Under the pieces are notes generated by a model. The model ran no database searches and had not been told where the DNA came from. It worked only from the letters and a program-made list of their open reading frames with translations. From Sphingomonas kyeonggiensis (GTDB lineage: Bacteria; Pseudomonadota; Alphaproteobacteria; Sphingomonadales; Sphingomonadaceae), in assembly GCF_014204495.1 (NCBI RefSeq), contig NZ_JACHLN010000003.1, positions 434,001 to 498,000 on the forward strand: DNA of 64,000 nt, read 5' to 3'. Made by a program: the position numbers and the translations under genes. How positions within the stretch are numbered: position 1 is the first letter of the stretch; each line of letters opens with the position of its first letter. This document shows positions 50,354 to 64,000 of the stretch, in pieces.

Positions 50354-50463
50354 CGGGATGCCCGCCACCGGTCGGCAAGTCACGTTAAGCTTTGGTCATG
50401 ATCCGGCCACTCCTGCGCGAACTGCGGCAGGCTACACGGCGAGCAGTTTCAAGGAGTTCGCGC

Positions 50464-51198
50464 ATGCGCCGTAGCCGCCGCAAGTTGAAGATCGCACTGG
50501 TCGCCCTGGCGCTGGTACTCGCCGGATTCACCGGCTTCCTGACCTATATCGGCTATTTCGGCGGCCCGGTCTTCTATGACATCGCACCCACCAAACCCAC
50601 GCCCCCGCAAGCGCGCGGTCTGGCGGTGGTGCTGGTCTCGGGCGACATGGGCTTCAAGATCGGCATGGGCCCGGAGATCGCCAGGCGCTTCGCCGCGGAG
50701 GGCGTGCCGGTGGTGGGCGTCAGCTCGCTCGCCTATTTCCGCCAGCAGCGCAGCCCTGCCGAGGTCCAGGCGCTGATCGCCGCCGCCGCGCGCCGCGCGC
50801 TCGCCTTCGGGCACGCGGAGCGGCTGGTGATGATCGGCCAGTCCTTCGGCGCGGACATGATGCATGTCGGCCTGACCGGTCTGCCCGCCGACCTGCGCGC
50901 CAGGGTGAAGGTGGTGTCGCTGGTAGTGCCGACCGACACGGTCTTCTTCCGCGCCTCGCCCAACGAGCTGTTCAACTGGGCCAAGCCCGATGCGATGGCG
51001 CTGCCCACCGGCCGCCGGCTCACCTGGGTGCCGACGCTCTGCGTACAAGGCGTGGAAGAGACTGACAGCCTCTGCCCGAAGCTGACCCAGCCCAATGTCC
51101 GCCGCATCGTGCTGCCGGGCGGGCACATGCTCCACCACGATCCGGCCGCGCTGTTCACGGCGCTCCACGCCGGCATCGCCAACATTACCAATATTTAG
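50464..51198 (+). CDS. VirJ/AcvB-domain protein, probable lysyl-phosphatidylglycerol hydrolase
   Basis: A 244-residue protein with an N-terminal signal anchor (KIALVALALVLAGFTGFL) and a VirJ alpha/beta-hydrolase domain: VLVSGDMGFKIGMG near residue 55, nucleophile serine in IGQSFGADMMH near 125 and GGHMLHHDP near 220. AcvB/VirJ proteins of Agrobacterium and Rhizobium hydrolyse lysyl-phosphatidylglycerol and are paired with LpiA/MprF, whose gene lies two positions downstream here. ATG 50464 is chosen because AAGGAG sits nine bases before it; an earlier start would add a basic stretch. Confidence 0.83.
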   Translation: MRRSRRKLKIALVALALVLAGFTGFLTYIGYFGGPVFYDIAPTKPTPPQARGLAVVLVSGDMGFKIGMGPEIARRFAAEGVPVVGVSSLAYFRQQRSPAEVQALIAAAARRALAFGHAERLVMIGQSFGADMMHVGLTGLPADLRARVKVVSLVVPTDTVFFRASPNELFNWAKPDAMALPTGRRLTWVPTLCVQGVEETDSLCPKLTQPNVRRIVLPGGHMLHHDPAALFTALHAGIANITNI

Positions 51199-51274: not shown

Positions 51275-51700
51275 ATGCGCTTCGGCAAGATCCTGGCCGG
51301 CCTCGGCCTCGCCGCGACGGTGCTCGGCACGATGCAGGCCTCCGCCCAGGCCCCGGTCGCCGCCGCGACCGGCGTGATGGGCACCTGGGTCAATCCGCGC
51401 GGCACGGTGAAGGTGCAGACCGGCGCGTGCGGCGACAAATTGTGCGGCTGGGTGGTCTGGGCCAATGCCGAGGCGCAGAAAGACGCCAAGGACAGCGGCA
51501 TCGACAAGCTGATCGGCACCGAACTGCTCCAGGACTATCACCCCACCGGCAACGGCAAGTGGCAGGGCCGGGTCTATGTCCCCGACATGGGCCAGACCTT
51601 CTACTCGAAGATCGAGCAGCAGGGCCCGAACAGCCTGAAGATCAGCGGATGCATCCTGGGCGGCTGGATCTGCAAGTCGCAGGTCTGGCAGCGCGGCTGA
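51275..51700 (+). CDS. DUF2147 family secreted protein
   Basis: The 141-residue protein has a signal peptide (MRFGKILAGLGLAATVLG, ending ASAQA) and a DUF2147 domain opening with GVMGTWVNPRGTVKVQT, including CGDKLCGWVVW and ending GCILGGWICKSQVW. Members are periplasmic proteins of unknown role, sometimes linked to steroid or lipid metabolism. AGAGGGAC lies nine bases before ATG 51275. It sits between the VirJ and MprF genes on the same strand, so a role in lipid or envelope handling is possible. Confidence 0.85.
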   Translation: MRFGKILAGLGLAATVLGTMQASAQAPVAAATGVMGTWVNPRGTVKVQTGACGDKLCGWVVWANAEAQKDAKDSGIDKLIGTELLQDYHPTGNGKWQGRVYVPDMGQTFYSKIEQQGPNSLKISGCILGGWICKSQVWQRG

Positions 51701-51711
51701 GGGCCGACGCG

Positions 51712-54279
51712 ATGCGCCCCGCCCACAAAACCGCGCTCCAGATCGGCGCCGTCATCGGCATCGTCGCGCTCGCCTTCGCGGCGCTGCACGGGCTGCTCCA
51801 CGAGGTCCGCTGGCGCGACGTGCGCCACGCCTTCCACGCGATCGGCCCCTGGCAGGTTGCCGGCGCGCTGGCGCTGACCGTCGGCAGCTACCTGATGCTG
51901 ACGCTGTACGACGTGCTGGCGCTGCGCATCATCGGCCGTCCGCTCCCCTATCGCACCGCCGCGCTTGCCTCGTTCACTAGCTATACGCTGAGCCACAACC
52001 TTGGCTTCGCGCTGCTCACCGGCGGTTCGGCACGCTATCGTGTCTATCACGCGGCCGGGCTCGACACCGCCGATGTGCTCAAGATGATCGCCACCGCGAG
52101 CCTCACCTTCTGGTCGGGCGTAATCGTCATGGCCGGTGCCGCGCTCGCGCTGCACGGCAGCGGCCTGGAACTGGCGGGCTTCACCATCTCTGCCGGCGTC
52201 CAGCGCGTGATCGGCATCGCCATCCTCGCGACCACGCTCGGTGTGCTGGCCGTGCTGCGCGCAAACCCCCGCGACCTGCGGCTGGGGCGCTGGCACGCCC
52301 CGCTCCCCAGCCGGATGCAGGCGCTCGGCATGATCGCCACCTCGGCCATCGACCTCGCCCTCGCCAGCGCCGCCCTGCTGATCCTTGTTCCCGGCGCTGG
52401 TCTCCACGCCTTCCCGGCCTTCTTCCTCGGCTATGCGCTGGCGATCATCGCCGCGCTGGTCACCCATGTCCCCGGCGGCGTCGGCGTGTTCGAGGCGGTG
52501 ATGCTCGCGGTGCTGCCCGGCGCCGATCCGTCGCGCATCCTCGCCGCGCTGATCCTCTACCGGCTGATCTATTACGTCCTGCCGCTGCTGGTCGCCGCCG
52601 CCCTGCTCGCGGTGCATGAGCGCCGCCAGCTCAGGAAGCCCCTCGCCGCAATCCGCGCGGTCGGCCTGGCGATGCACGGCCTCGCCCCCACCTTCCTCGC
52701 GGCACTGGTCTTCGTCGGCGGCATCGTGCTGCTGGTCTCGGGATCGCTCCCCGCCATCCCCGCGCGCCTGCGTGACCTCCACGCCTTTGTCCCCCTGCCC
52801 TTTGTCGAGGCGTCGCACATCGCGGCCAGCCTCGCCGGCACCGCGCTGCTGCTGATCGCCCCCGCGCTCTACCGCCGCCTCGACGCCGCCTTCCTGCTCT
52901 GCCGCACGCTGCTGCTCGCCGGCGCGCTGTTCTCGTTGATGAAGGGCGTCGATTATGAGGAAGCGGTGATCCTGCTGATCATCGCCGGCCTGCTCCAGCT
53001 GTCGCGGACCGCCTTCTATCGCAAGACCGCGCTTACCAGCGCGCTCACCGGCCGCGCGCTCCTGTCCGTCGCGGTCGCCGTCGCGCTTGCCACCTGGATC
53101 GGCTTCTTCGCCTTCAAGCACGTGCCCTATCAGGACAATCTCTGGTGGGAATTCGCCTGGAAGGGCGATGCCTCGCGCTTCCTGCGCGCCAGCTTCGCCA
53201 CTGCCGTGGCGCTCACCTGCGTCGCCGTCACCCAGTGGTTCGGCTATGCCCAGCCCAGACGCGAGGAGCATACGCCGGACACCGAGCTCCCGCGCCTCGC
53301 CCTGGTCCATGCCAATCGCACCGACGCGCTGCTCGCCTATGCCGGCGACAAGCGCTTTCTGCGCTCGGCAAGCGGCGAGACGCTGCTGATGTACCAGGTC
53401 CAGGGCCAGAGCTGGATCGTGATGGGCGATCCCGTCGGCCCGAAGGAGGAATGGGGCGACCTGCTCTGGCAGATCCGCGAGATCGCCGATGCCGCCCAGG
53501 GCCGCCTGCTGCTCTACCAGATCTCGACCGACACGCTGCCGATCGCGATCGATCTCGGCCTCCAGCTGGTGAAATATGGCGAGGAAGCCCGTGTGCCGCT
53601 TCCCGGCTTCTCGATGGATGGTTCGGAAAAGCGCTCGCTCCGCCATTCCGATCGCCGCGCCGCCCGCGAAGGCGCGGTCTTCGAGATCGTGCCCGCCGCG
53701 CAGGTCCCTGCCTTGATGCCCGAGCTGCGCGCCGTCTCCGATGCCTGGCTCGCCGACAAGGGGCATGGCGAGAAGGCTTTTTCGGTCGGCCGCTTCGATC
53801 CCGCCTATATCGCCCGTTTCGATTGCGCGCTGGTCCGCCAGCACGGCAGGATCGTCGCCTTCGCCAATGTCTGGGCCACCGAGAATCGCGAGGAGCTGTC
53901 GGTCGATCTGATGCGCCATCTCAACGAGATGCCCTACGGCACGATGGACTTCCTGTTCGTCCAGCTGATGATCTGGGGCCGAGACCAGGGCTATCGCTGG
54001 TTCAACCTCGGCATGGCGCCACTGTCCGGCATCGAATCCCGCCGCCTCGCCCCGATGTGGGCGCGCATCGGGGCACTGCTATACCGGCACGGCGACGCAT
54101 TCTACGGCTTCGAGGGCCTGCGCGCCTACAAGGACAAGTTCTCGCCGGTCTGGACCGCCCGCTATATCGCGGCACCTCCGGGCCTGGGCCTGGCGCGCGG
54201 AATGATCGACCTGCAGACGCTGATCGGCGGCAGCTCGCGCAGCGCGGCGAGAAAGCGGCGGCTGCGGCTGGTGGCCTAA
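51712..54279 (+). CDS. mprF: Bifunctional lysyl-phosphatidylglycerol synthase/flippase
   Basis: An 855-residue inner-membrane enzyme that transfers lysine from lysyl-tRNA to phosphatidylglycerol and flips the product. The N-terminal half has about 13 helices of the flippase domain (GPWQVAGALALTVGSYLML near residue 42; GGSARYR near 103). The C-terminal DUF2156 synthase domain (about residues 530-840) has NRTDALLAYAGDKRFL, QSWIVMGDPVGPKEEW, and FNLGMAPLSGIE near 765. ATG 51712 opens the first helix and lies eleven bases after the DUF2147 stop. Gene order VirJ-DUF2147-MprF mirrors the lpiA-acvB pairing of rhizobia. The product alters surface charge and resistance to cationic peptides. Confidence 0.92.
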   Translation: MRPAHKTALQIGAVIGIVALAFAALHGLLHEVRWRDVRHAFHAIGPWQVAGALALTVGSYLMLTLYDVLALRIIGRPLPYRTAALASFTSYTLSHNLGFALLTGGSARYRVYHAAGLDTADVLKMIATASLTFWSGVIVMAGAALALHGSGLELAGFTISAGVQRVIGIAILATTLGVLAVLRANPRDLRLGRWHAPLPSRMQALGMIATSAIDLALASAALLILVPGAGLHAFPAFFLGYALAIIAALVTHVPGGVGVFEAVMLAVLPGADPSRILAALILYRLIYYVLPLLVAAALLAVHERRQLRKPLAAIRAVGLAMHGLAPTFLAALVFVGGIVLLVSGSLPAIPARLRDLHAFVPLPFVEASHIAASLAGTALLLIAPALYRRLDAAFLLCRTLLLAGALFSLMKGVDYEEAVILLIIAGLLQLSRTAFYRKTALTSALTGRALLSVAVAVALATWIGFFAFKHVPYQDNLWWEFAWKGDASRFLRASFATAVALTCVAVTQWFGYAQPRREEHTPDTELPRLALVHANRTDALLAYAGDKRFLRSASGETLLMYQVQGQSWIVMGDPVGPKEEWGDLLWQIREIADAAQGRLLLYQISTDTLPIAIDLGLQLVKYGEEARVPLPGFSMDGSEKRSLRHSDRRAAREGAVFEIVPAAQVPALMPELRAVSDAWLADKGHGEKAFSVGRFDPAYIARFDCALVRQHGRIVAFANVWATENREELSVDLMRHLNEMPYGTMDFLFVQLMIWGRDQGYRWFNLGMAPLSGIESRRLAPMWARIGALLYRHGDAFYGFEGLRAYKDKFSPVWTARYIAAPPGLGLARGMIDLQTLIGGSSRSAARKRRLRLVA

Positions 54280-54287
54280 GCGTCACT

Positions 54288-54409
54288 CCCCTCCCTGAAA
54301 GGGAGGGGTCGGGGGTGGGTCGATATACGCGTTACGACACGGCCACCGACTGGGGCAGCAGTATCGCCAGGACACCACCCACCCCTAGCCCCTCCCTTCC
54401 AGGGAGGGG
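54288..54409. repeat. Inverted pair of CCCCTCCCT palindromes
   Basis: CCCCTCCCTGAAAGGGAGGGG (54288-54308) followed by TCGGGGGTGGGT, and its inverted partner (ACCCACCCCTAGC then 54389-54409). Arms are arranged as at 20521-20668, with a different middle (67 bases). It fills the gap between the convergent mprF and glycosyltransferase genes and may terminate both. Confidence 0.65.
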
Positions 54410-54416
54410 AACAAGT

Positions 54417-55565
54417 TCAGTACCGCCCCCACACGAAACGCGACGACAGCGCGAAGTTCCAAACCGCCGCCACGCCGATTCCGGCCAGCGCCGACAGCCG
54501 CCAGTCGCCATGCTGGACATTGTGGAGGAACGCCGCGACGCCGACGTTGGCCGCCGCGCCCGCGCCGCACACGACGCAAAAGCTGGCCCAGCCGCGCAGC
54601 AGCTTCGCCGCACCCTTCAGCCGCTGCTCGCGATAGGTCAGCGCATTGTTGAGGAAGAAGTTGAACGTCATAGCGCCCAGCACCGCGAACATCGTCGCGC
54701 CGACGAACGACAAGCCGATCCCGCAGAACAGTGCAGACAGCACCGCGAAATGCACCGCCGCACCCAGCGCGCCGATGCCGGAGAACATTGCGAAGCGCAC
54801 CGGCACGACCTTGCCGAACATCCGGTCATAGAGCGCGATGAGGTACTCCATCGCCACGACATGATCGAGCTTGGACTCGCCCAGCGCGCGGGTACGGAAC
54901 ACATAGGGCAGCTCGACGAACTTCAACGGCCGCGGCGAGGCGGTCATGATGTCGAGCAGGATCTTGAAGCCGATCGCCGAGAGCCTGGGCACCAGGTCGC
55001 GTACCACGCCGGCGCGGATCATGAAGAAGCCGCTCATCGGATCGGAGAGATCGGCCTTGAGCACCTTGCGGGAGAGCCTGGTCGCGAAGGCCGACTTGGC
55101 GACCCGGTCCTCATCCCACTCGCCGGTGCCGCCGCCATCGACGAAGCGCGAACCGATCGCCACGTCGAGGTTCTGGTCACGCTCCAGCGCATCGAGCATC
55201 TTGGGCAGCAGCGTCTCGTCATGCTGCAGGTCGCCGTCGATCACCGCGACGAAGGGCGCCGAAGTGGCGCACATGCCCTCGATACAGGCCGAGGAGAGCC
55301 CGCGCCGGCCGATCCGCTGGATCACCCGCACCCGCATGTCCTTGCGGCCGAGCGCACGGGCCGCATCGGCGGTACCGTCCGGGCTGTTGTCGTCGACGAA
55401 GATCGCTTCCCAGCTCCGCCCTTTCAGCGCCGCGGCGAGCTTGTCGATGAGCAGCGGCACATTGGCGCGCTCGTTGAAGGTGGGGATGACCACGGCAAGT
55501 TCGAGATCGGCGCCGGGTGCGATGCGCGCGAAACGCGCGATCTCGCCGTCGAGGAAGAGCTTCAT
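54417..55565 (-). CDS. Membrane glycosyltransferase: GT2 (DPM1-like) plus GtrA domain
   Basis: The 382-residue protein has an N-terminal GT2 domain (FVDDNSPDGTAD near residue 57, VIDGDLQHDE near 110, GSRFVDGGGTGEW near 140) of the dolichyl-phosphate-mannose-synthase type, which makes polyprenyl-phosphate sugars. After residue 240 come four helices of a GtrA domain (for example AMFSGIGALGAAVHFAVLSALF), known to flip such lipids. ATG 55565 opens KLFLDGEIARFAR; an upstream in-frame start would include the long leader hairpin. The leader also has a TTGCGG-17-CGTCTC element shared with the glycosyltransferase gene at 59762. Likely role: lipid-linked sugar supply for envelope glycans. Confidence 0.88.
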   Translation of the reverse strand: MKLFLDGEIARFARIAPGADLELAVVIPTFNERANVPLLIDKLAAALKGRSWEAIFVDDNSPDGTADAARALGRKDMRVRVIQRIGRRGLSSACIEGMCATSAPFVAVIDGDLQHDETLLPKMLDALERDQNLDVAIGSRFVDGGGTGEWDEDRVAKSAFATRLSRKVLKADLSDPMSGFFMIRAGVVRDLVPRLSAIGFKILLDIMTASPRPLKFVELPYVFRTRALGESKLDHVVAMEYLIALYDRMFGKVVPVRFAMFSGIGALGAAVHFAVLSALFCGIGLSFVGATMFAVLGAMTFNFFLNNALTYREQRLKGAAKLLRGWASFCVVCGAGAAANVGVAAFLHNVQHGDWRLSALAGIGVAAVWNFALSSRFVWGRY

Positions 55566-55595
55566 GCGATCCCTTTTCTGGGCCCTTGAATTGGG

Positions 55596-55648
55596 CCCCG
55601 GGAGGGGCGCGCCGGGGCACAGATACGCAATGGCGCGCCCTCCCGGGG
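55596..55648 (-). other. Long GC-rich stem-loop in leader of the GT2-GtrA gene
   Basis: CCCCGGGAGGGGCGCGCC (55596-55613) pairs with GGCGCGCCCTCCCGGGG (55632-55648), 17 base pairs with one bulged G and an 18-base loop, lying 31 bases before the start codon. It would be in the mRNA leader if the promoter at 55711 is used. No T-run follows, so a classical terminator is unlikely. Confidence 0.45.
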
Positions 55649-55710
55649 GTTCGAGACAGCGAATGCGGTGCCGGGGGACGACTAAGCATTCCTGCCTCGG
55701 GGGCATGGTT

Positions 55711-55739
55711 GAGACGGAGCCCCTGTCGCGATCCCGCAA
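55711..55739 (-). promoter_or_regulatory. Candidate promoter TTGCGG-17-CGTCTC (glycosyltransferase pair, copy 1)
   Basis: On the minus strand TTGCGG, GATCG, eight variable bases, GCTC and CGTCTC. The same arrangement and spacing occur at 61382-61410 ahead of the GT39-type gene. An AT-rich block at about 55751-55788 lies just upstream and could act as an UP element. Confidence 0.5.
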
Positions 55740-55782
55740 CGCTTTCGGGAAAAATTCCGGGAAATCGAAAATTAATTCCCTG

Positions 55783-55798
55783 GCGAAAGCCGGGGACC
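55783..55798. repeat. Partial GGCGAAAGCCGGGG repeat unit
   Basis: A half copy of the CCCCGGCnnnnGCCGGGG palindrome family, just beyond the end of the TonB receptor gene. Confidence 0.4.
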
Positions 55799-55808
55799 AG
55801 CCGAGCGC

Positions 55809-58193
55809 CTAGAACCCCAGCTCAACCCCCAGCCGCACGGTGCGCGGGCGCAGCGGGGTGATCTGCTTCTCGTCGCGGATCAGCAGCGGCGATCCCAGCG
55901 CGAAGCGGTTGCCGCGGGTATCGAGCAGATTGGTCGCCGACAGGGTGATCGCCCGCCGTCCGCGCTCCAGCCGCAGCTCCATGCCGGTATCGACATAGTC
56001 GCCCTGCGGCTTGCCCAGCACCGGGCCGATGCCCAGCGTCGAGCGCCCGACATAGCGCAGATAGCCGCTCGCCGAGAATTCGGTCTCGCCGCCCAGCGCG
56101 GTGCGATAGGCGGCACCCAGCCGCCCGCTCGCATCGGCGACATTGGGCAGCCGGTTGAAGTCGGACGGGCCCTCGGCGAGCGGGAACACCGCAGCCGACG
56201 GATCGGTCACCTTCGAAGCGTTCAGATAGAGCGAACCGTCCAGGTCCAGCCCCGGCAGCGGCCGCCAGCGCACCGCCATCCCCAGCGACAGCACCCGCCC
56301 GTCGCCGATGTTCGACGTGGTCGGGAAACCATAGCCGTCGATCAGGTCCGCCTGGATACTGGTCCACCAGGTCATCGATGCGCTGGTCGATACGCTCAGC
56401 CCATTGGCGGTGTAGCGCGTGCCCGCCTCGACCGTGGAAAGCCGGTCGCCCTGGAAACGCTGGATCAGGTCGCGCCGCACCGCCAGGCCGCCGGGGCGGA
56501 AGCCCTGCTCGAAGCGGCCGAACACGGTGAGCCCGTCGAACGGACGATAGGCGATCGCGGCCGAGGGCAGCAGCCGCGTCTCGGTGCGCGCCGCCTTCGC
56601 GCGTGGATCGGCGCGGAAGGCGAAGAAACGGTCCGCGTCCTGCGCATTGCCGGTCAGGTGCGAGCGCGTCAGCCGCCCGCCCGCGGTGATCGTCACCCCG
56701 CGCACCGGCTCCACCGTGCCCTCGCCGTAGAGCGTCGCCTCGTCCACGGTGTTGCGCACGCCGGTCAGCGCCGCGCGCATCGACCCATAGCTGCGGTTCA
56801 CCCGGCCGCGATTCTCGAGGAAACTGACCCCGATCAGCCATCCGGTACCGCGCGGGCCGCGCCGCGACAGCCGCGTCTCCGAGGTGATCATGCTCACCCG
56901 GTTGATCTGCTGATAGCCGATCAGCGGCGAGTTCAGCGCGGGCAATGGGAAACCCTGGTTGACGTCGTCGACCGAGGCACCGGCAAAGACTTCGGAGACA
57001 TATTGCCGGGCATAGGCACCGGCCGTGCTCAACTCGATATCGCCCCAGCGCTTGCGAGCGACCAGCTCGGCCAGCCAGAAGTCATTCTGGAACGGCTGGG
57101 CGATCGGGCTCCTCCGGCTCAGGCCATCGCCCTTGCCGTCCGAATATTGCGCGTCATTGCCCTTGATGCTCTGGCCGACGCCGCCCACGTCGATCGTCCA
57201 GCCATCGACTTCCCAGCGCAAGGCCGCGCGGCCACCGGTGGTGCGCACGCTGTTGACGTCGGCCAGCCCGCGCTCGCGGTCGTCGATATAGCCGCCGTCG
57301 CGCGAACTGAACGCGAGCGCGCGGAAGGCCAGCTCGCCTTCCTTGATCGGCATGTTGACGATGCCGCCCACGTCCCAGCTCGGATCGCCATGCTGGGTGA
57401 GCGAGCCGCCGCCCCAGACCTGGCCGCCGGTTGCCCAGAAGTCCGGCGCGCGCGGCACCACACGGACCACGCCGCCCAGCGATCCCGCGCCATAGAGCGT
57501 GCCCTGCGGCCCCTCGAGCACTTCGACCCGGCCGATGTCGTACAGCTTCAGGTCGGGATCGGGCGCACTGTAGGTGATCCGGCTGTTGCCCCAATATTGG
57601 CCAACCGTCGCCTGGGTCGGGCCGACGAAGCTGGAATCGGCGATGCCGCGGATGAACAGCTTGTTGCGCCCCGGCCCGAGATGGGTGGAAGCGAGGCTGG
57701 CGACGCGGTTGGCGATGACATCGCTGCCCTTGCCGCCTTCGGAGACCGGAATATCCTCGCCCTCGACGATCTGCACGCCGCCGGGATAGGCCTTGAGCGG
57801 CACGTCGCGCTTGCTGCCGGTGACCAGGATCTCGGCCGGCGGCGCATCGGGCTCCTCGCGCGGCGGTGGCGGCGGCGCCGGACGATGCCGCACCGGCGGG
57901 GCGCGTTCGATCAGCCAGGTGCCGGGGGCGACGCGGCGCGCACGCGCGCCGGTGCCGCGCAGCATCTCGGCCAGCGCACCGTCGACACTGTGCTTGCCCT
58001 TGATCGGCCGCACCGTGATGCCGCCCAATGCGGGCTCGCGCAGGCCGATGCTGCTGCCAGTCTGCTTGCCGAGCGTGAACACCGCGGCATCGAGCCGTCC
58101 GGCAGGCACGGAGACGCTATGCCGCTTCTCCTGCGCAAGCGCAGGCGAAGCCGCCAGCAAAGCGATCGGGAGGATCAGCTTAGTGCGGTGCAC
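55809..58193 (-). CDS. TonB-dependent receptor with STN signalling domain (FecA-like)
   Basis: A 794-residue receptor. A signal peptide (HRTKLILPIALLAAS, ending ALAQ) is followed by an STN domain (about residues 22-100, VPAGRLDAAVFTLGKQTG), a proline-rich linker, the TonB-box/plug region (EILVTGSKRD near 120, YGAGSLGGVVRVVP near 235) and a barrel ending VRLGVELGF. The STN domain indicates surface signalling to the FecR and FecI homologues encoded just upstream. GTG 58193 is preferred, giving a normal signal peptide and a 14-base overlap with fecR; ATG 58220 would add nine odd residues. The ligand is not certain; such systems often sense iron chelates or glycans. Confidence 0.9.
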   Translation of the reverse strand: MHRTKLILPIALLAASPALAQEKRHSVSVPAGRLDAAVFTLGKQTGSSIGLREPALGGITVRPIKGKHSVDGALAEMLRGTGARARRVAPGTWLIERAPPVRHRPAPPPPPREEPDAPPAEILVTGSKRDVPLKAYPGGVQIVEGEDIPVSEGGKGSDVIANRVASLASTHLGPGRNKLFIRGIADSSFVGPTQATVGQYWGNSRITYSAPDPDLKLYDIGRVEVLEGPQGTLYGAGSLGGVVRVVPRAPDFWATGGQVWGGGSLTQHGDPSWDVGGIVNMPIKEGELAFRALAFSSRDGGYIDDRERGLADVNSVRTTGGRAALRWEVDGWTIDVGGVGQSIKGNDAQYSDGKGDGLSRRSPIAQPFQNDFWLAELVARKRWGDIELSTAGAYARQYVSEVFAGASVDDVNQGFPLPALNSPLIGYQQINRVSMITSETRLSRRGPRGTGWLIGVSFLENRGRVNRSYGSMRAALTGVRNTVDEATLYGEGTVEPVRGVTITAGGRLTRSHLTGNAQDADRFFAFRADPRAKAARTETRLLPSAAIAYRPFDGLTVFGRFEQGFRPGGLAVRRDLIQRFQGDRLSTVEAGTRYTANGLSVSTSASMTWWTSIQADLIDGYGFPTTSNIGDGRVLSLGMAVRWRPLPGLDLDGSLYLNASKVTDPSAAVFPLAEGPSDFNRLPNVADASGRLGAAYRTALGGETEFSASGYLRYVGRSTLGIGPVLGKPQGDYVDTGMELRLERGRRAITLSATNLLDTRGNRFALGSPLLIRDEKQITPLRPRTVRLGVELGF

Positions 58194-59133
58194 CGTCGAT
58201 CGCGTCCAGCATCCATCCATTGCCCGCGCGGGTCGCCCGGGTACCGGTCAGCGCGGCGATGCGCTCGACCACGGCTCCCGGACCGCCCTGGGTAGAGATC
58301 GTGCCCGTGAACGGAATGGCTTCCGTTCCCTTCCCCACCCGCACCTTGACGCCCAGGTTGCGGGAGAGATCGGCGGCGACGCGCTCGAGCGTCGCATTGC
58401 GATAAACGAGCTGTCCGCCGCGCCACGCCCCGATATCGGTGACGATGGTCCGGCTGACTTCGGGGCGGCCGCTGCCGGCAACGCTCAGCGAGTCGCCTGG
58501 GCTCAGCCGCACCGCTTCGGCCTGGGGCTGGTAGATCACCGCGCCCTCGGCCACCGAGACGCGCAACCCGGTCTCGTCGCGCACCACATTGAACACGGTG
58601 CCGGCATCCTGCAGCGTGACGCCGCCGGTCTTGACGATGAACGGGTTGGCGGCGTCGTGGCGCACTTCGAACAGTGCCTCGCCCTCGATCAGTTCGGCGC
58701 TGCGCTTGTCGAGCACCGCCACGCGGGTGGCGCCGTTCAGCACCATCCTCGATCCGTCCGCCAGCGCGACTTCGCGGCGCTCGCCGGCGCGCGTGGCATA
58801 TTCATGCCCGCCGGGGCCGCTGCCCAGGCTGGACCAGCCGACCACCACCGCCAACGCAGCGGCGACCGCACCGCCCGAAATCAGGAACAGCCGCCGCGGG
58901 GCGCGGGGCGCCACCGGCTCGGCCTCGGGCACCACCACCGGCGCGGGCGCGAGCTGGAACAGCCCCGCCATCGCCTCATCGGCGTCGAGTGCCTGGTTAT
59001 AGGCCTGCAGATGCGCGGGATCGCGCTCCAGCCAATCGGCGAAAGCGTCCCAATCGGCGAAAGCCGAGTCCTGCAGCCGGATCACCCACCCCCGGGCGTC
59101 CTCTGCAAGAAGTTCCGAAACCTGCCCGTTCAT
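58180..59133 (-). CDS. fecR: FecR-family anti-sigma/sensor protein
   Basis: The 317-residue protein has an N-terminal cytoplasmic DUF4880 region (WVIRLQDSAFADWDAFADWLERDP, residues 15-40), one helix near residues 82-104 (LFLISGGAVAAALAVVVGW), then a periplasmic FecR domain (TRAGERREVALADGSRMVLN near 115) and a C-terminal secretin-like part. It would bind the sigma factor inside and the receptor STN domain outside. ATG 59133 has GAGGTG before it; the GTG two codons earlier is less likely. Its end overlaps the receptor start. Confidence 0.92.
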   Translation of the reverse strand: MNGQVSELLAEDARGWVIRLQDSAFADWDAFADWLERDPAHLQAYNQALDADEAMAGLFQLAPAPVVVPEAEPVAPRAPRRLFLISGGAVAAALAVVVGWSSLGSGPGGHEYATRAGERREVALADGSRMVLNGATRVAVLDKRSAELIEGEALFEVRHDAANPFIVKTGGVTLQDAGTVFNVVRDETGLRVSVAEGAVIYQPQAEAVRLSPGDSLSVAGSGRPEVSRTIVTDIGAWRGGQLVYRNATLERVAADLSRNLGVKVRVGKGTEAIPFTGTISTQGGPGAVVERIAALTGTRATRAGNGWMLDAIDGAPH

Positions 59134-59166
59134 GCCCACCTCAACCCGAGGACGGAGTCGATGCGA

Positions 59167-59679
59167 TCATTCCGCATCGAACCGGTCCTTCAGCTGGGCG
59201 AGGGCGCGGTACGCCTTCTGCAGATCCTTTTCCACCGAGCTCAAGCTTATCCCCAATTCCCGAGCGATCGCTGCCTGGCCAAGCCCCTCCAGCCGGTAGC
59301 GACGGAAAACCTGATCGACTCGCGGCCCAAGTGCAAGCAGCGTCGTCTCCGCCTCGCGCAATCGCTCGCGCGCGATCAGCACGCGCTCGCCCTGCGGCGC
59401 GTGATCGCTGGCCGCGAGGTCCTGCCATTCGTGCTGGCGCCGGCCGCGACTCAGGTTGGCGCGCTGGCGATCGCGCAGCACATTCTCGGCGGCGCGGAAC
59501 AGATAGGAGATCGGATCGGAGACCGGGCGCGCCTCGGTGCCCGAGATCTTGTGCCACAGGTCCTGCAGCACATCCTCGGCATCGTCGCCCGCCCCGCGCG
59601 CGGCGAGGAAGCGCAGCAGCCGCGGCCGCTCGTCCTCGAGCACGCGCTGCAAGCCGCTGATCGACGAAGTGGCAGTCAT
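59167..59679 (-). CDS. fecI: ECF sigma factor, FecI-like
   Basis: A 170-residue sigma-70 family protein with region 2 (RFLAARGAGDDAEDVLQDLWHKI, residues 23-45, and YLFRAAENVLRDRQR) and region 4 (RRYRLEGLGQAAIARELGISLSSVEKDLQKA near 125-155). ATG 59679 gives the normal N-terminus; an earlier in-frame start would run back into the upstream gene. It precedes fecR and the STN receptor and would direct their transcription after signal transfer. It begins 82 bases after the GT39-type gene. Confidence 0.93.
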   Translation of the reverse strand: MTATSSISGLQRVLEDERPRLLRFLAARGAGDDAEDVLQDLWHKISGTEARPVSDPISYLFRAAENVLRDRQRANLSRGRRQHEWQDLAASDHAPQGERVLIARERLREAETTLLALGPRVDQVFRRYRLEGLGQAAIARELGISLSSVEKDLQKAYRALAQLKDRFDAE

Positions 59680-59761
59680 GCCCGAAGCCAAAGCATTGCG
59701 CGCTTCTCTTGCCAAGCCTTGGCTGCGAGATGGCGCAATTGCGGCAGCGGAAAGGAGGAGC

Positions 59762-61354
59762 TCAGGCACCCGCCCGCCGCCGATAGACGATGCGGCTGCG
59801 GCTCCCCACCGGCACTTCCAGCGCCGGCGCATAGTCGCGCGCCAGCAGCCCGGTCATGTAATCGAGCACTTCGGGGCTCAGGTCGCGGTCGGGCCGGGTG
59901 CTGGCGACGACGAATTCGGGCCGCGCCGCCATGATCCGCTTCACTTCGGCCATGGGATCCACGCCGATCGCGCGCGATTCGCGGGTGAGGCTCAGATGAC
60001 TCGGGAACGGCCAGCGCGTCGGCAGGCAGCTGCCGGTCAGCCGGTAGAGCGCCGGCTCGCCGTCGAACACGTACAGGCAATCGCGCAGCTGCGGCCGGAT
60101 ATAGTCCGCCATCCGCTCGACCTGCGGGCCCCAGCCCCGGTCGCGGCGATTGTCGTTGACGATGTTGAGCGAGATCGTGGCGATCAGCGCCATCATCGCC
60201 ACGCCCGCCGGGATCCGCCAGCGCGTCCGCCCCGATGCGAGCACCAGCCCCGCCGCGCCGTCGCCAAACCAGGCGGCGGCCAGCACGCAGAGCGGCGCGA
60301 CCAGCGGCAGCGCATAATGGTCGAAGAAGGTGCCGAAGAGCAGCACGCCGCCGATCGCCGCGATCGCCCAGCCGTCGAGCAGCTTGCGCACATCCTCGCT
60401 CACCGGCCGCGCCATGCCGCGCCCCAGCCACGCCGCAATCCCGAGCGGCGCGAGCAACAGCGCCATCCAGCCCAGCCGCTTGAGCACGATGCCGGTGCCG
60501 TCCGAGCTGCGCTCGAGGATCGACAGGAAATTCGCCTGCACGAACGCGTCGCCCTGTCCGATCGCGGCATACCAGCCCCATGCAGCCAGCGTCGGCAGCA
60601 GCGCCGCGGCGATCCAGGCCGCGCCCATCGCCACCAGCGCCCCGCGCCCGGCCCCGCGCTGCCCGGCGAACCACAGCAACGCCAGCCCAAAGAACACGCC
60701 TTCGAACAGGGCGGTGTACTTCACCTGCATCGCCGCGCCGATCAGCAGCATCACGCCCAGCCCACCGGCGAAGCCCAGCCAGTCGAAGCCTGGGCGACGC
60801 ACGATACCGGTCATCGCCCAGGCCGCGAGCGCGACGAACAGATTGTAGAAGACCGGCGACTGGCCGCCTTCGCCGCCGAAGATGCCGAGATAGAGGATAT
60901 AGACCACGCCCGCCGCCGCCGCGCCGTGCGGCCCGGCCAGGTTGCGGGCGATCCGCGCGATGACGAAGGCCGTGGCCACCGCGAACAGCGTCGCCACCAG
61001 CTGGTATGCCAGCACGCCTTCCCCGCCGAGCAGGCGGATCGCGGCATAGATCAGGAACAGCCCGATCGGCTTGCGGTCCCAGATATCGACATAGGGCAGC
61101 GCCCCATGGAGCATCCGGTCGCCGGTCAGCAGGTAGAATTCGTCATCGACCTGGACGACGGGATTGCCGAACTGCGCCGCCCGCGCGGCGATCGCGACGA
61201 CCAGCAGCAGCGCGGCCAGCAAGGCCGGGTTGCTCGCCCATACCCGCGTCGCCGCCGCCACCCGCGCCGTCCAGGGCAGATGCCCGGGCTCAACCAGCCG
61301 GAGTGGCCGGTGGCGAGGCGCGTCGAGCAGGGTGCGGGCTGGGAAATGCTGCAT
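59762..61354 (-). CDS. Membrane glycosyltransferase, ArnT/PMT-like (GT39/GT83 type)
   Basis: A 530-residue protein with about 11 helices. The first periplasmic loop contains VVQVDDEFYLLTGDRML near residue 68, the acidic motif of GT-C enzymes that use polyprenyl-phosphate sugar donors, and DIWDRKPIGLFLIY near 90. The C-terminal 120 residues form a soluble tail. ATG 61354 is used; TTG two codons before it is possible. A TTGCGG-17-CGTCTC element shared with the GT2-GtrA gene ends 28 bases upstream, and the two proteins could act in sequence, one making and flipping the lipid donor, the other using it. Confidence 0.85.
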   Translation of the reverse strand: MQHFPARTLLDAPRHRPLRLVEPGHLPWTARVAAATRVWASNPALLAALLLVVAIAARAAQFGNPVVQVDDEFYLLTGDRMLHGALPYVDIWDRKPIGLFLIYAAIRLLGGEGVLAYQLVATLFAVATAFVIARIARNLAGPHGAAAAGVVYILYLGIFGGEGGQSPVFYNLFVALAAWAMTGIVRRPGFDWLGFAGGLGVMLLIGAAMQVKYTALFEGVFFGLALLWFAGQRGAGRGALVAMGAAWIAAALLPTLAAWGWYAAIGQGDAFVQANFLSILERSSDGTGIVLKRLGWMALLLAPLGIAAWLGRGMARPVSEDVRKLLDGWAIAAIGGVLLFGTFFDHYALPLVAPLCVLAAAWFGDGAAGLVLASGRTRWRIPAGVAMMALIATISLNIVNDNRRDRGWGPQVERMADYIRPQLRDCLYVFDGEPALYRLTGSCLPTRWPFPSHLSLTRESRAIGVDPMAEVKRIMAARPEFVVASTRPDRDLSPEVLDYMTGLLARDYAPALEVPVGSRSRIVYRRRAGA

Positions 61355-61381
61355 ACTCAACCTGAAAACTGGGTTCAGGTC

Positions 61382-61410
61382 GAGACGGAGCTACGGCGCC
61401 GATCCCGCAA
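61382..61410 (-). promoter_or_regulatory. Candidate promoter TTGCGG-17-CGTCTC (glycosyltransferase pair, copy 2)
   Basis: On the minus strand TTGCGG, GATCG, eight variable bases, GCTC and CGTCTC, identical in layout to 55711-55739. It ends 28 bases before the ATG of the GT39-type gene, as expected for a promoter. Confidence 0.5.
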
Positions 61411-61499
61411 GGCAACGCGACCAAACGGCACTCCGGGGCGACGGAATACAGGCCTCCCTTCCGCGGACAAGCCAGGAGGGATTGCCTTCAGCGCTTCGC

Positions 61500-61574
61500 T
61501 CCCCGGCGAAAGCCGGGGCCCAGGGTTTCTCTGCCGTGCCGCTTGTTACCCTGGCCCCCGGCTTTCGCCGGGGA
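61500..61574. repeat. Large inverted repeat with CCCCGGC units between two genes
   Basis: TCCCCGGCGAAAGCCGGGG plus CCCAGGGT on the left is complementary to ACCCTGG plus CCCCGGCTTTCGCCGGGGA on the right, giving a stem of about 27 bases around a 20-base loop. Each arm is itself a palindrome of the second repeat family. It lies after the end of the small secreted-protein gene and may be its terminator. Confidence 0.6.
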
Positions 61575-61589
61575 ACAGCTAGTCCACCC

Positions 61590-61997
61590 TCAGCTGCGCG
61601 GCGGCTTGGGATAGGGCACGAAATCGCCCAGCCCCACCCAGCCGGTAACCGAGCGCAGGCCGGTGTCGTACAGCCGCACCGTGTCGATCCGGCAGAGCTG
61701 GCTCAGCGTCGTCTCGGTGACCAGCACGTCGGTCCAGTCGAGCGTCTGCGCACCGCTCCGGGGGCGGTTCACATATTTCACGCCGTTGTTCATCTCGTAG
61801 ATGATCGCGGTCCCGTCGATGATCTTCGACGAGCGGATGTCGCGCAGGTTGATGCAATCCACCGGCTTGCCGGCAGTACGCCCGGCGACCGCCTTGGCGA
61901 TCTCGGCCTCGCCGTCCCTCTGCCCGGCCGCGGCGGCCGGCATGGCCAGCCCGGCCAGCAAGGCGGCGCCGAGAAGCTTGATCGAAATCCTGTTCAT
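61590..61997 (-). CDS. Small secreted protein, DUF6491-like
   Basis: The 135-residue protein has a clear signal peptide (MNRISIKLLGAALLAGLAM, ending AAAAG) and a domain with VDCINLRDIRSSKIIDGTAI, IYEMNNGVKYVNRP and TTLSQLCRIDTVRLYD, ending in a proline-rich tail. The two cysteines could form a disulphide. The pattern resembles DUF6491 proteins of alphaproteobacteria, but this match is from memory. ATG 61997 begins the signal peptide. It follows the SulP gene on the same strand by about 100 bases. Confidence 0.7.
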   Translation of the reverse strand: MNRISIKLLGAALLAGLAMPAAAAGQRDGEAEIAKAVAGRTAGKPVDCINLRDIRSSKIIDGTAIIYEMNNGVKYVNRPRSGAQTLDWTDVLVTETTLSQLCRIDTVRLYDTGLRSVTGWVGLGDFVPYPKPPRS

Positions 61998-62099
61998 GGC
62001 ACTGTCCTTTCGAGCCCCCATGATCCGATGACGGAGCATATAAGCACGATCCGCATCCGGGTCATCGGCTCGCCGGGCGATTTTGTGTCGCAATCGGTA

Positions 62100-63695
62100 T
62101 CATTGCTCCAGCCGCCGCACCGCATCGGCAACGCTGTAGTCGCTCCGCTCCACCACCTCCGGCGCGCCCGCTGCATGCAGCAGGTCGCGCACCCGGTCAT
62201 GCACCCGCGCATAATGGACGCGCAGCCCCTTTGCCGCCATCGCCCGGTCGAACTCGAGCAGCGCGTCGAGCGCCGTGCTGTCGATATCGATGCTCTCCTC
62301 CAGGCTGATCACCACCGCGTGCAGGTCCGGCTCGGCCAGCGTCCGCCGGGCCACCTCGGCGAACATCCGCTCGGCATTGGCGAAGAACAAAGGCGCCGCC
62401 GGCCGCCAGATCGCGATTCCGCCGGGCATCACCGCGTTGTGGTGGCGATAGGCATCGACGAAGTCATGGCTCTCCCCCAGCCGCCCCAGTCGCGCCAGGC
62501 GGGCATTGCCGAAGCGCTGCACCAGCGCCGCGAGCGAGAGCAGGATCGCGCAGAGCATGCCGTCGAGCACGCCGAGCACCAGCACGCCCAGCGCGGCGGC
62601 GAGCGCGATATACTGGTCGCGGTTGAGTCCCCAGAGCCGCAGGATCGGTCGCGGATCGAGCGAATGGGTCAGCGCCGCGATCACCACCGCCGCCAGCACC
62701 GGCTGGGGCAGCAGCGCGACTAGCGGCATCGCGAACAGCACCAGCGCGCCCAGCGCCAGCGCCGCCGCCGTGCCGGCCAGTCGCGAGCGTGCGCCCGACG
62801 CCTCGTTCGCCGCGCTGGCGGAGAGCCCCGCCCCCACCGGCATGCCCTGCACCAGCGCCGACGCGAGATTGGCCAGCCCCAGCGCGCGCAGCTCGCGGCC
62901 GGAATCGAGCAGGTCGCCGTGGCGCAGTGCCAGCGTCCGCATCGTCCCCCAGCTCTCGGCCAGCAGGATCAGCGCCAGCGGCACCGCGACCTGCGCCGCT
63001 TCCAGCAGCATCGCCGGTGAGTAGGCCGGTATCGTCGCCCTCTCCGGCATCAGCGCGATGTGCCCCACCGTCGCCACGCCGTGTGCCTGGAGTTCGAGCA
63101 GTCCGGAAGCCGCGACGCCCGAGACCAGCACGATCAGCGCCGCCGGTACGCCGGGCCAGCGCCGCAGCACCAGCAGCGTCGCCAGCGCGGCCAGCCCCAC
63201 CGTCAGGCTCGGCACATGCCAGTGCGGTACCGCCCGCAGCACTGCCAAGCCGGTGTCGAACAGCGTTCCGCCCGGCGCGGGCACGCCCGCGAGCACCGGC
63301 AGCTGCTTGATGCTGATCGTGATCGCCAGTCCGAAGGCGAAGCCGCGAAGCACCGGATGCGAGATGAATCCGGTCAGTCCGCCCAGCCGGAACGCCCATG
63401 CAAGCAGGAACAGCAGCCCAGCCAGCGCCACCGCCATCATCAGGAACAGCATGCGCATCCCCTCCCCGCCCGGCACATTGGCAAGCGAGGCGGCAAGGAT
63501 CGCCGCGGAGGAGGAAGTCGCCGATACGATCGCGAACCGGCTCCGCCCGGCCAGCGCATAGACCAAAGTGCCGACCAGTGCGGCCAGGATCGCATGCCCC
63601 GGCGCCACACCGGCGATCCCGGCATAGGCCACCGCCTCGGGCAGCATCAGCCCGGCAACCGCGAGGCCGGCGACGATATCGGCACGAATCTTCAA
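62100..63695 (-). CDS. SulP-family anion transporter with STAS domain
   Basis: A 531-residue inner-membrane transporter with 12 to 14 helices (for example AGLAVAGLMLPEAVAYAGIAGVAP near residue 10, the SulP signature) and a C-terminal STAS domain (about residues 420-525, VVISLEESIDIDSTALDALLEFD). Members carry sulfate, bicarbonate or dicarboxylates in symport; the anion is not clear here. Start ATG 63695 fits the short cytoplasmic N-terminus. It stands alone between a small secreted-protein gene and a regulator. Confidence 0.9.
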   Translation of the reverse strand: MKIRADIVAGLAVAGLMLPEAVAYAGIAGVAPGHAILAALVGTLVYALAGRSRFAIVSATSSSAAILAASLANVPGGEGMRMLFLMMAVALAGLLFLLAWAFRLGGLTGFISHPVLRGFAFGLAITISIKQLPVLAGVPAPGGTLFDTGLAVLRAVPHWHVPSLTVGLAALATLLVLRRWPGVPAALIVLVSGVAASGLLELQAHGVATVGHIALMPERATIPAYSPAMLLEAAQVAVPLALILLAESWGTMRTLALRHGDLLDSGRELRALGLANLASALVQGMPVGAGLSASAANEASGARSRLAGTAAALALGALVLFAMPLVALLPQPVLAAVVIAALTHSLDPRPILRLWGLNRDQYIALAAALGVLVLGVLDGMLCAILLSLAALVQRFGNARLARLGRLGESHDFVDAYRHHNAVMPGGIAIWRPAAPLFFANAERMFAEVARRTLAEPDLHAVVISLEESIDIDSTALDALLEFDRAMAAKGLRVHYARVHDRVRDLLHAAGAPEVVERSDYSVADAVRRLEQ

Positions 63696-63766
63696 ATGGC
63701 CCCTCCCGGAGCCCCACCTCTGCGCCCGCTTGCAATGGATGGGAAGCCGCCCGTCTCTCCCCTCCT

Positions 63767-63792
63767 GTCACGCTGAACTTGTTTCAGCATCC
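63767..63792. repeat. GTCACGCTGAAC...TTTCAGCATCC repeat
   Basis: Second copy of the palindromic unit at 38777-38802 (GCTGAAC/TTTCAGC). It lies between the SulP and regulator genes, followed by another repeat unit near 63830. Confidence 0.6.
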
Positions 63793-63829
63793 AACTCTCC
63801 TTCCGCGACACAGCCAGGAGAGACATTGG

Positions 63830-63849
63830 GCCCCGGCCTTCGCCGGGGG
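63830..63849. repeat. CCCCGGCCTTCGCCGGGG palindrome
   Basis: CCCCGGC, CTTC, GCCGGGG, the same unit as at 20613-20630. It lies 28 bases beyond the stop of the regulator gene on the minus strand, so it could serve as its terminator. Confidence 0.55.
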
Positions 63850-63877
63850 ACACTTGGGTTGCACGTCATCAAAAGCC

Positions 63878-64000
63878 CTATCGAAGCTGCCGCTTCTCCA
63901 GCTTCCGCGCCAGCGTCCGCCGATGCATCCCCAGCCGCCGGGCGGTCTCGGAGATGTTGAAGTCGGTCTCCACCAAAGTCTGGTGGATATGCTCCCATTC
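63878..64000 (-). CDS. C-terminal end of RegA/PrrA/ActR-type response regulator (partial)
   Basis: The last 40 codons of a minus-strand gene cut by the window edge, reading [15 protein letters not shown], then [19 protein letters not shown] and ending KRQLR. This is the Fis-like helix-turn-helix of the RegA/PrrA/ActR family, redox-responsive regulators of alphaproteobacteria. The receiver domain would lie beyond the window. The motif is nearly identical to the family pattern, so the call is firm despite the short length. Confidence 0.88.

Follow-up and report, generated by a model that had tools for sequence, protein, structure and literature searches.

A 29-base element that precedes two membrane glycosyltransferase genes of Sphingomonas kyeonggiensis is, on comparison of sequences, very probably the promoter at which a FecI-like ECF sigma factor, encoded at 59167-59679 on the minus strand, starts transcription of a small regulon, and an outer-membrane receptor appears in this way to be linked to genes that add sugars to the bacterial surface. 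The window, i.e. the whole stretch of DNA that was analysed, comprises 64,000 nucleotides (contig NZ_JACHLN010000003.1, positions 434,001 to 498,000), and feature positions below are those of the window. The pattern TTGCGGGATCG-N8-GCTCCGTCTC, reported in the initial annotation from two places, was recovered without mismatch at 55711-55739 and 61382-61410. The two copies are on the minus strand, like the genes at which they point, and the 17-base interval between TTGCGG and CGTCTC is as described there. A chance reading was rejected, as no match arose in 100 shuffles (mean 0.00). A search of the complete genome (4,957,855 bp) returned these two exact matches and no third, plus two further matches at 3 mismatches, while the same pattern read backwards as a control gave 0.

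The two hexamers by themselves, at up to 2 mismatches, were no commoner in the window than chance predicts (11 vs 12.4 expected), so that the signal resides in extended boxes together with the hexamers. The refined consensus, [AT]T[GA]CGG[GA][AT]T-N11-[CT]TCCGTC[TC]C with fixed spacing, occurs exactly at 4 places in the genome, against 0 for the exact backwards control. Spacing is rigid: 97 matches have the observed gap, and no other gap between 5 and 17 has more than 4. The core CGTC is a feature of ECF -10 elements, and the element carries the features of an ECF-type promoter: this core in the -10 position, a -35 box and fixed spacing. The -35 box would be TGCGG(G/A)AT and the -10 box CTCCGTC(T/C)C, centred on CGTC, at a single spacing. 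That the two copies have no regulatory meaning, and arose by local duplication not long ago or as a mobile repeat that travels with the genes, might be suspected from their distance of 5.7 kb and from dispersed palindromes in the wider region, but similarity between them stops at the edge of the element (a 36-nt stretch of 78% identity), the boxes upstream of the PMT_2 gene are kept while spacer and flanks drift among relatives, and sites stand before other genes at two distant places in the genome and before unrelated genes in other genera. This explanation is hardly credible.

Between the two elements lies, as annotated initially, a unit of sigma factor, anti-sigma factor and TonB-dependent receptor, all on the minus strand. 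The putative reader of the promoters is a FecI-like protein of 170 aa (59167-59679, ATG at 59679), which matches PF08281 (37.7 bits vs cut-off 25.7) and, as the longer reading frame 59167-59832, the ECF sigma factor model TIGR02937 (56.8 bits vs cut-off 42.9). It scored 43.2 bits against the NCBIfam equivalog for ferric citrate FecI (NF041727, cut-off 260), and this score, far under the cut-off, indicates that the sigma factor is not FecI itself. Directly downstream of it, as in cell-surface signalling (CSS) systems, is the gene for a FecR-like anti-sigma factor of 317 aa (58180-59133; PF04773, 72.2 bits, cut-off 24). The receptor (55809-58220, 803 aa) is of the transducer type, with barrel (PF00593, 55.8 bits) and plug (PF07715, 42 bits) both above cut-off and a putative N-terminal signalling region; its match to the STN model is weak (18.3 bits vs cut-off 28.4), and its N-terminus aligns to the FpvA chain 5odw (residues 18-317) and to the PupB signalling domain 2a02 (E=2.7e-4). 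The locus thus resembles FecI-FecR-FecA, with an ECF sigma factor, a FecR anti-sigma factor and a transducer-type TonB receptor together in the same order.

Both downstream genes encode proteins of membrane glycosyltransferase type by Pfam, in agreement with the initial annotation. ECF-type promoter 1, TTGCGGGATCGGCGCCGTAGCTCCGTCTC (61382-61410, minus strand), lies 27 nt upstream of the start codon of the PMT_2-family gene (59762-61354, minus strand, 530 aa), and its boxes form a conserved island in 6/6 clade genomes. It is predicted to drive fecI as well as PMT_2, since the two genes are separated by 82 nt and no other such site stands between them; a separate weak fecI promoter is possible. 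The PMT_2 protein, a candidate GT-C-type partner of the fusion protein described next that presumably uses a polyprenyl-phosphate sugar, barely passes its Pfam cut-off (PF13231, 28.5 bits vs 26.1), has no NCBIfam match, and gave an unusable AlphaFold model (pLDDT 39.5, run with 6 orthologues). ECF-type promoter 2, TTGCGGGATCGCGACAGGGGCTCCGTCTC (55711-55739, minus strand), is situated 145 nt upstream of the start codon of the other gene (54417-55565, minus strand, 382 aa), a fusion of a GT2 domain (PF00535, 102.3 bits) with a GtrA/DPMS transmembrane part (PF04138, 73.7 bits). This fusion combines a Gtr-like synthase of the polyprenyl-phosphate-sugar type with a GtrA membrane domain and matches dolichol monophosphate mannose synthase (PDB 5mlz) at E=6.7e-49.

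Promoter 2 and GT2/GtrA are separated by a GC-rich 5' leader (55566-55704, minus strand) that is strongly folded (z-score -5.4 for 55560-55704) and conserved in 6 clade genomes. A riboswitch reading of this leader was discarded, with covariation too weak to claim it (two-sided change in 2/41 pairs). An Rfam search of 54000-64000 gave 6 matches, all far under their gathering scores, and a covariance model of the leader built from the 6 clade genomes matched 3/101 genus genomes, each among those 6, under the stricter filters that apply to scans of more than 40 genomes, without indicating a wider RNA family. One of those genomes also had a single weak match in antisense orientation.

Three sites consistent with the refined consensus were missed by the initial annotation. 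Within the unit, ECF-type promoter 3, ATGCGGAATGATCGCATCGACTCCGTCCT (59149-59177, minus strand, 1 mismatch), occupies the fecI/fecR gap, where it overlaps the stop codon of fecI and leaves 15 nt to the fecR ATG, and its equivalent position is kept across relatives; as its -35 box falls within fecI coding sequence (codons D-A-E-stop), some of its conservation could be coding. The other two sites are exact and distant, before a gene for an outer-membrane beta-barrel protein and before one for a TbpB-like lipoprotein (a PDB sequence search with the latter gave one meaningless match, E=0.45). At 1 mismatch, nine matches were found in the genome vs three for the control. Besides 59149, which was kept as a member, they include a weak promoter-like site, ATGCGGATCGTGCTTATATGCTCCGTCAT (62028-62056, minus strand, matrix score 16.9), 30 nt ahead of the point where a DUF6491-like gene, itself under its Pfam cut-off (18.9 bits vs 27.5), probably starts. 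Equivalents of this site score 11.3-17.0 in 4/5 clade relatives scanned, and its membership of the regulon is uncertain. A further match, C3:806951 (score 19.6), is 35 nt before a gene for a predicted secreted or lipoprotein and is retained as a candidate regulon site; the downstream protein was found in 0/5 clade genomes at E<=1e-20, in a search run without a positive control. The remaining 6 were rejected, lying inside genes on the ORF maps. Matches within other genes reach scores of 22.7 and 19.8, so that the motif alone is unspecific genome-wide.

Conservation of the motif was examined in relatives. The initial annotation proposed that its absence from orthologous promoters would speak against a shared promoter; it is present upstream of PMT_2 in 6/6 and of GT2/GtrA in 6/6 clade genomes, the window's included. 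The unrefined pattern, at up to 2 mismatches, matched in 9/151 genus genomes, all 9 of which have a FecI orthologue of at least 65% identity. Orthologues of at least 59% identity were found in 20/151 genomes, and the pattern at this stringency was present in 9/20 genomes with such an orthologue and 0/131 without (Fisher 1.9e-9, kinship ignored). At up to 3 mismatches, 26/131 genomes without the orthologue also matched, and the backwards control of the pattern matched in 11/151 genus genomes.

A matrix was trained on 30 sites from genus genomes, the window's two among them. In a first held-out test of ten loci (L113-L122), 9/10 of which came from six other genera, all 10 had a site scoring at least 15 within 1.5 kb of fecI; in L122 the best score (18.2) fell inside an M23 peptidase gene, probably by chance, and the site before an aldolase gene scored 16.9. 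For a larger set of FecI relatives (80 kept of 111 confirmed), sites scoring at least 17 in the available flanks (up to 6 kb) were found at 46/51 loci with FecI of at least 57% identity and at 0/29 below that value, counted irrespective of kinship and with a cut first set after the results of the first held-out test. The reversed-matrix control gave 0/80. The five close relatives without a site at threshold were L186, L194, L195, L205 and L209. Of the close relatives, 40/51 were counted as held out, meaning loci without a string identical to a training site, and sites were present at 35 of these 40; L174/G242, L187/G359, L191/G158, L211/G219 and L213/G341 were judged to be the same genomes in this set and the first test, and three others (L168, L171 and L172) are closely related to genomes used in training. 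In the FecI tree, a split at the site boundary (SH-aLRT 98) separates 29 rows with no sites from 52 rows, 47 of them with sites.

In a draw of genomes from the family, the exact consensus occurred in 5/10 genomes with a close FecI vs 33/287 without (p=0.004, kinship ignored), and the control was sizeable (24 control matches vs 45 matches). In 3 of these 5 the match is near fecI and outside a gene. The one inspected of the 33 genomes lacking a close FecI, G408, has its match in the fecI/fecR gap, next to a FecI of 49% identity. Strict covariation of the -35 box with the recognition helix was ruled out by three relatives (g70) that have TTGAGG in place of TTGCGG and the same helix.

An operator bound by an activator or repressor, rather than a sigma factor promoter, could also present as a conserved bipartite element of fixed spacing. 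Its probability is very low: the element is neither a palindrome nor a direct repeat; 81/97 sites in close relatives are followed on their own strand by the start of a reference gene, in most cases no more than 50 nt away (same-strand genes were searched, and 16/97 sites have no assigned downstream gene); and the ECF core CGTC lies at a constant distance past the stop of fecI in 43/51 close relatives and 24/29 others, unchanged in the sister clade even though the preceding bases differ. A Pfam profile search found no other regulator gene in the window's unit, while presence of the site tracks FecI.

Marginally less probable still is transcription by another ECF sigma factor, such as an ECF26-type factor or a second FecI paralogue. 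The genome holds 11 FecR loci and so several related systems, and promoters of RpoE1/RpoE4 of Sinorhizobium meliloti share the -10 sequence CGTCTC in the available text of PMC6180224; those same promoters, in our alignment of the sequences given there, have GGAAT at -35 instead of TGCGG. The motif is found at 1/11 FecR loci, that of the window, and is absent within 1.5 kb of the other 10 (best score 7.1 vs 23.6), and its presence follows the FecI orthologue in a comparison that covered FecI genes. The initial annotation's idea of a dedicated sigma factor for both copies, with the FecI homologue named as a possibility, is supported by this absence together with tracking of the FecI orthologue, the site before fecR and the receptor gene, promoter conservation and rigid spacing, and transcription by the FecI-like protein is kept as the most probable reading.

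In the proposed circuit, a ligand would bind the TonB-dependent receptor, whose N-terminal signalling region would contact FecR and release FecI, and RNA polymerase with the freed FecI would start at these promoters. In this genome it would switch on PMT_2-fecI, fecR-receptor, GT2/GtrA, the outer-membrane beta-barrel gene and the TbpB-like lipoprotein gene. Because fecI follows the PMT_2 promoter and fecR has a copy to itself, the sigma factor is predicted to reinforce its own synthesis in a positive loop, with anti-sigma factor supplied to match. Each preceded by a copy of the promoter, GT2/GtrA (by type a synthase plus flippase for a lipid-linked sugar) and PMT_2 (by type a user of such a sugar) would be induced together, each providing half of a single surface-glycosylation pathway. 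Between branches the downstream genes are unrelated (PMT_2, GT2/GtrA, HpcH-type aldolase, M23 peptidase, autotransporter), and targets seem to vary by clade, mostly among envelope or surface-glycan genes.

Lipid-linked glycosylation by GtrA/GtrB/Gtr systems and by ArnC/ArnT-type pairs relies on a PMT-type membrane enzyme together with a synthase for the polyprenyl-phosphate sugar and a GtrA-type membrane part. The genes described here appear to share this combination, and differ in that GtrA is fused to the synthase and in their predicted control by a CSS sigma factor. Of systems comparable in regulation, VreI/VreR is also named PUMA3, and HasI/HasS is from Serratia. The locus has the architecture of FecIRA-type signalling with a predicted output that is unusual. 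According to the accessible part of PMC9249621, the Escherichia coli system works in ferric citrate transport, and fecIR there is controlled by Fur and does not regulate itself, whereas here fecI is predicted to be transcribed from a promoter that its product reads, with glycosyltransferases and other envelope genes as predicted targets. VreI/VreR of Pseudomonas aeruginosa is also a CSS-type ECF system, and its output is given as virulence instead of nutrient uptake in the title and opening abstract of PMC2729926. HasI drives its own anti-sigma gene, as is predicted here for fecR, but its output is heme uptake and hasI is not autoregulated in the corresponding part of PMC9249621, unlike the autoregulation predicted for fecI. 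S. meliloti FecI belongs to an alphaproteobacterial fecI-fecR-receptor cluster as well, and no promoter motif could be identified for it in the available portion of PMC6180224, whereas one is defined here.

More speculatively, the system may be a sigma switch, gated by a TonB receptor and amplifying itself, with which sphingomonads remodel their own surface glycans instead of importing a nutrient, a reading that we hold tentatively and consider rather unlikely as a whole. Control of fecI by a promoter that its product reads, and of fecR by a second copy, might make such a switch bistable, with ON and OFF cells differing in surface sugar. The same promoter would precede different surface-glycan modules across genera: in the S. 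leidyi/S. kyeonggiensis group this could be the pair for lipid-linked glycosylation, and elsewhere an aldolase/polysaccharide-export operon.

Among the literature matches listed, with subscription journals mostly outside their scope, no report was found of receptor-to-sigma control of surface sugars with a self-feeding sigma gene. Sphingomonads are described as rich in TonB-dependent proteins in the accessible text of PMC9249621. A coincidence of two sequence copies has been turned into a testable regulon in these bacteria, for which a sigma factor, an anti-sigma factor, a receptor and a promoter consensus are named. On this prediction, surface sugars can come under receptor-to-sigma control, and the sigma gene would feed itself, unlike fecI of E. 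coli.

The element TTGCGGGATCG-N8-GCTCCGTCTC has exactly two copies in the window, one at 55711-55739 and one at 61382-61410, each on the minus strand, and 100 shuffles of the window gave no match to this 29-base pattern. The initial annotation was right in placing two same-oriented copies before membrane glycosyltransferase genes. The 61382-61410 copy ends 27 nt upstream of the ATG of a gene for a 530-aa PMT_2 protein (59762-61354), and the 55711-55739 copy ends 145 nt upstream of that for a 382-aa GT2 plus GtrA/DPMS protein (54417-55565), whose best solved-structure match was dolichol monophosphate mannose synthase (5mlz, E=6.7e-49). Between these genes, in minus-strand order, lie fecI (59167-59679), fecR (58180-59133) and a TonB receptor gene (55809-58220; plug and barrel). 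The FecI homologue scored 56.8 bits against the ECF superfamily (cut-off 42.9) and just 43.2 bits against the FecI proper model (cut-off 260), and FecR scored 72.2 bits (cut-off 24). The receptor N-terminus matched the signalling receptors FpvA and FoxA, and also the PupB signalling domain, with Pfam STN under its cut-off. Beside the GT2 gene, 50392-51198 and 51427-54279 (plus strand) encode, judging from the ORF translations, a putative AcvB/VirJ-like protein and a putative membrane protein of the MprF type, which would make another envelope-lipid module adjoining the regulon.

A search of the whole genome (4,957,855 bp, 8 contigs) returned the same two exact copies and two matches at three mismatches, and the pattern read backwards returned none. 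Bare hexamers with up to two mismatches were no commoner in the window than chance predicts (11 against 12.4 expected), and the information therefore sits in the extended boxes. With up to three mismatches the pattern matched 43 of 151 genus genomes (backwards control, 11 of 151), and related sites returned in conserved contexts among the matching genomes. Small exceptions aside, the consensus of 30 sites was [TA]T[GA]CGG[GA][AT]T-N11-[CT]TCCGTC[TCA]C; none of the 30 departed from T2, CGG or TCCGT.

This refined pattern occurred exactly at four places in the genome (exact control, none): at the two copies in the window, at C2:174751-174779, 35 nt upstream of an outer-membrane beta-barrel gene (PF13505), and at C3:843544-843572, ~170 nt upstream of a lipoprotein-like gene (L054:306-1331, minus strand) with a TbpB_B_D domain barely above cut-off (26.7 vs 26 bits). 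The leader of this surface-lipoprotein-like gene is similarly long in relatives, behind the same promoter type. One mismatch gave nine further matches in the genome against three in the control. One, at 59149-59177, overlaps the fecI stop codon 15 nt upstream of the fecR ATG, a position also occupied by a site in relatives. Another, C3:806951-806979 (L061:1501-1529, plus strand; score 19.6 on a matrix built from the 30 sites), lies 35 nt upstream of the ATG of a predicted secreted protein or lipoprotein, which had no match in five clade genomes at E<=1e-20; it is a candidate regulon member. A third, degenerate match at 62028-62056 (minus strand), upstream of a DUF6491-like gene (61590-61997), carries TATAT directly ahead of CTCCGTCAT, and similar sequence was present in four of five clade relatives; this uncertain member could represent an overlapping sigma-70/ECF promoter or could have arisen by chance. 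The other six fall within genes, and the matrix is not specific enough alone genome-wide, two one-mismatch matches inside other genes scoring 22.7 and 19.8.

The motif is retained ahead of the PMT_2 and GT2/GtrA orthologues in all six genomes of the S. leidyi/S. kyeonggiensis clade, and in the alignment upstream of PMT_2 both boxes stand out as conserved islands. The beta-barrel and lipoprotein sites were each found in five of the six; in G109, a clade genome, neither was found with the patterns used. The genome holds five supported sites, not two.

The initial annotation had suggested that a dedicated sigma factor, possibly the FecI homologue, reads both copies, and this was supported and extended, the sites tracking one FecI subfamily. 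Twenty of 151 genus genomes carry a FecI relative at 59% identity or above; with up to two mismatches the original pattern matched nine of them and none of the 131 others (p=1.9e-9, kinship ignored), or 3 of 14 and 0 of 131 without the window's own clade (p=7e-4, kinship likewise ignored). With up to three mismatches the counts were 17/20 and 26/131. A matrix score of at least 15 within 1.5 kb of fecI was reached at 30/30 relatives of at least 57% identity, including ten loci outside matrix building, nine of them from six other genera (one of the ten, L122, was weak, its best-scoring position being inside a gene), and at 2/29 more distant relatives (loci L136 and L090). Among 80 named GTDB-genome loci, retained out of 111, a score of at least 17 in flanks of up to 6 kb was found at 46/51 relatives of at least 57% identity vs 0/29 below, kinship ignored; 35/40 close relatives kept a site once loci holding a training string were removed, and the reversed matrix matched 0/80. 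No FecI identity in this set falls between 55.3 and 59.6%, so the result does not hinge on the precise cut. In the sigma-factor tree, a branch with SH-aLRT 98 parts 29 site-less distant rows from 52 rows, 47 of them with sites. The stronger point, compared with these kinship-blind tests, is that the same promoter precedes unrelated genes in different branches. Within the genome there are 11 FecR loci; the score reached 23.6 at this one, and at the remaining ten nothing within 1.5 kb exceeded 7.1.

A family-wide draw was much less clean: the exact refined pattern matched 5/10 genomes with a close FecI vs 33/287 without (p=0.004), at 45 matches against 24 in the control, and of the five only G158, G359 and G426 matched near fecI in expected places. 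Most of the 33 are read as chance; the one inspected, G408, has its match in the fecI/fecR gap beside a FecI 49% identical.

When the gap between the two 9-mers was varied from 5 to 17 in the 51 close relatives, the observed length of 11 gave 97 matches and no other length more than 4. Between fecI and fecR, 43/51 close and 24/29 distant relatives place CGTC 12 nt past the stop codon, and no other offset up to 40 nt is shared by more than two. Immediately ahead of CGTC, the close group has TC, TT, TA or TG, whereas the sister group has GG, GA or GT; the FecI systems of the sister clade, most of them Sphingobium, carry ATACGGAAT...GGCGTC at this position. The promoter code of each FecI subfamily might be readable from this gap. 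The -35 box there is partly fecI coding sequence, so the -35 half alone would be weak evidence. The -35 does vary: three g70 relatives have TTGAGG ahead of the aldolase gene, with the recognition helix unchanged.

Of the 97 sites in the 51 close relatives, 32 lie ahead of fecR, 24 ahead of an HpcH-type aldolase gene, 8 ahead of PMT_2, 7 each ahead of GT2/GtrA and of an M23 peptidase gene, and 3 ahead of fecI, with naming based on only 11 reference proteins and 16 sites left without an assigned gene. In the aldolase type, the aldolase gene is followed by inositol-monophosphatase-family, Poly_export/SLBB polysaccharide-export (checked in G337 and G219) and GT2 genes (checked in G064 and G337), and further along by PMT_2 (G064), GtrA (G158) and CDP-sugar-type genes (G064, opposite strand); an M23 gene is commonly directly ahead of fecI. 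In one relative, G426, a site lies ahead of an autotransporter gene. The targets have the cell envelope in common, and for the most part surface glycans.

The predicted GT2/GtrA leader (55566-55704, minus strand, ~139 nt) carries repeated CCCCCGG motifs and would fold very stably (-77 kcal/mol; 55560-55704 has z -5.4). It is strongly conserved in the six clade genomes, with weak covariation, was found in the clade only among 101 genomes searched, and had no Rfam match above cut-off. Dispersed REP-like palindromes of the type CCCCGGCGAAAGCCGGGG lie at 61500-61574, 63818-63848 and 55776-55800.

On this sequence evidence, the element is very probably a promoter read by this FecI-like sigma factor. 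With less confidence at each later step, a ligand would bind at the TonB receptor, the signal would pass through FecR, FecI would be released and transcription would begin at these sites. As fecI lies 82 nt behind PMT_2 without a site of its own, it is predicted to feed itself, and the map also gives fecR its own promoter copy. According to PMC9249621, by contrast, E. coli fecIR shows no autoregulation and neither does hasI, although HasI does drive hasS, as is predicted here for fecR. For S. meliloti FecI, PMC6180224 reports no identified motif, whereas here one is defined. Among the matches listed, mostly non-subscription literature in which absence is weak evidence, there was no report of such a FecI/ECF regulon. 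The system represents a new form of FecIRA-type cell-surface signalling, with a predicted circuit and a link to one sigma-factor subfamily that spans several sphingomonad genera.
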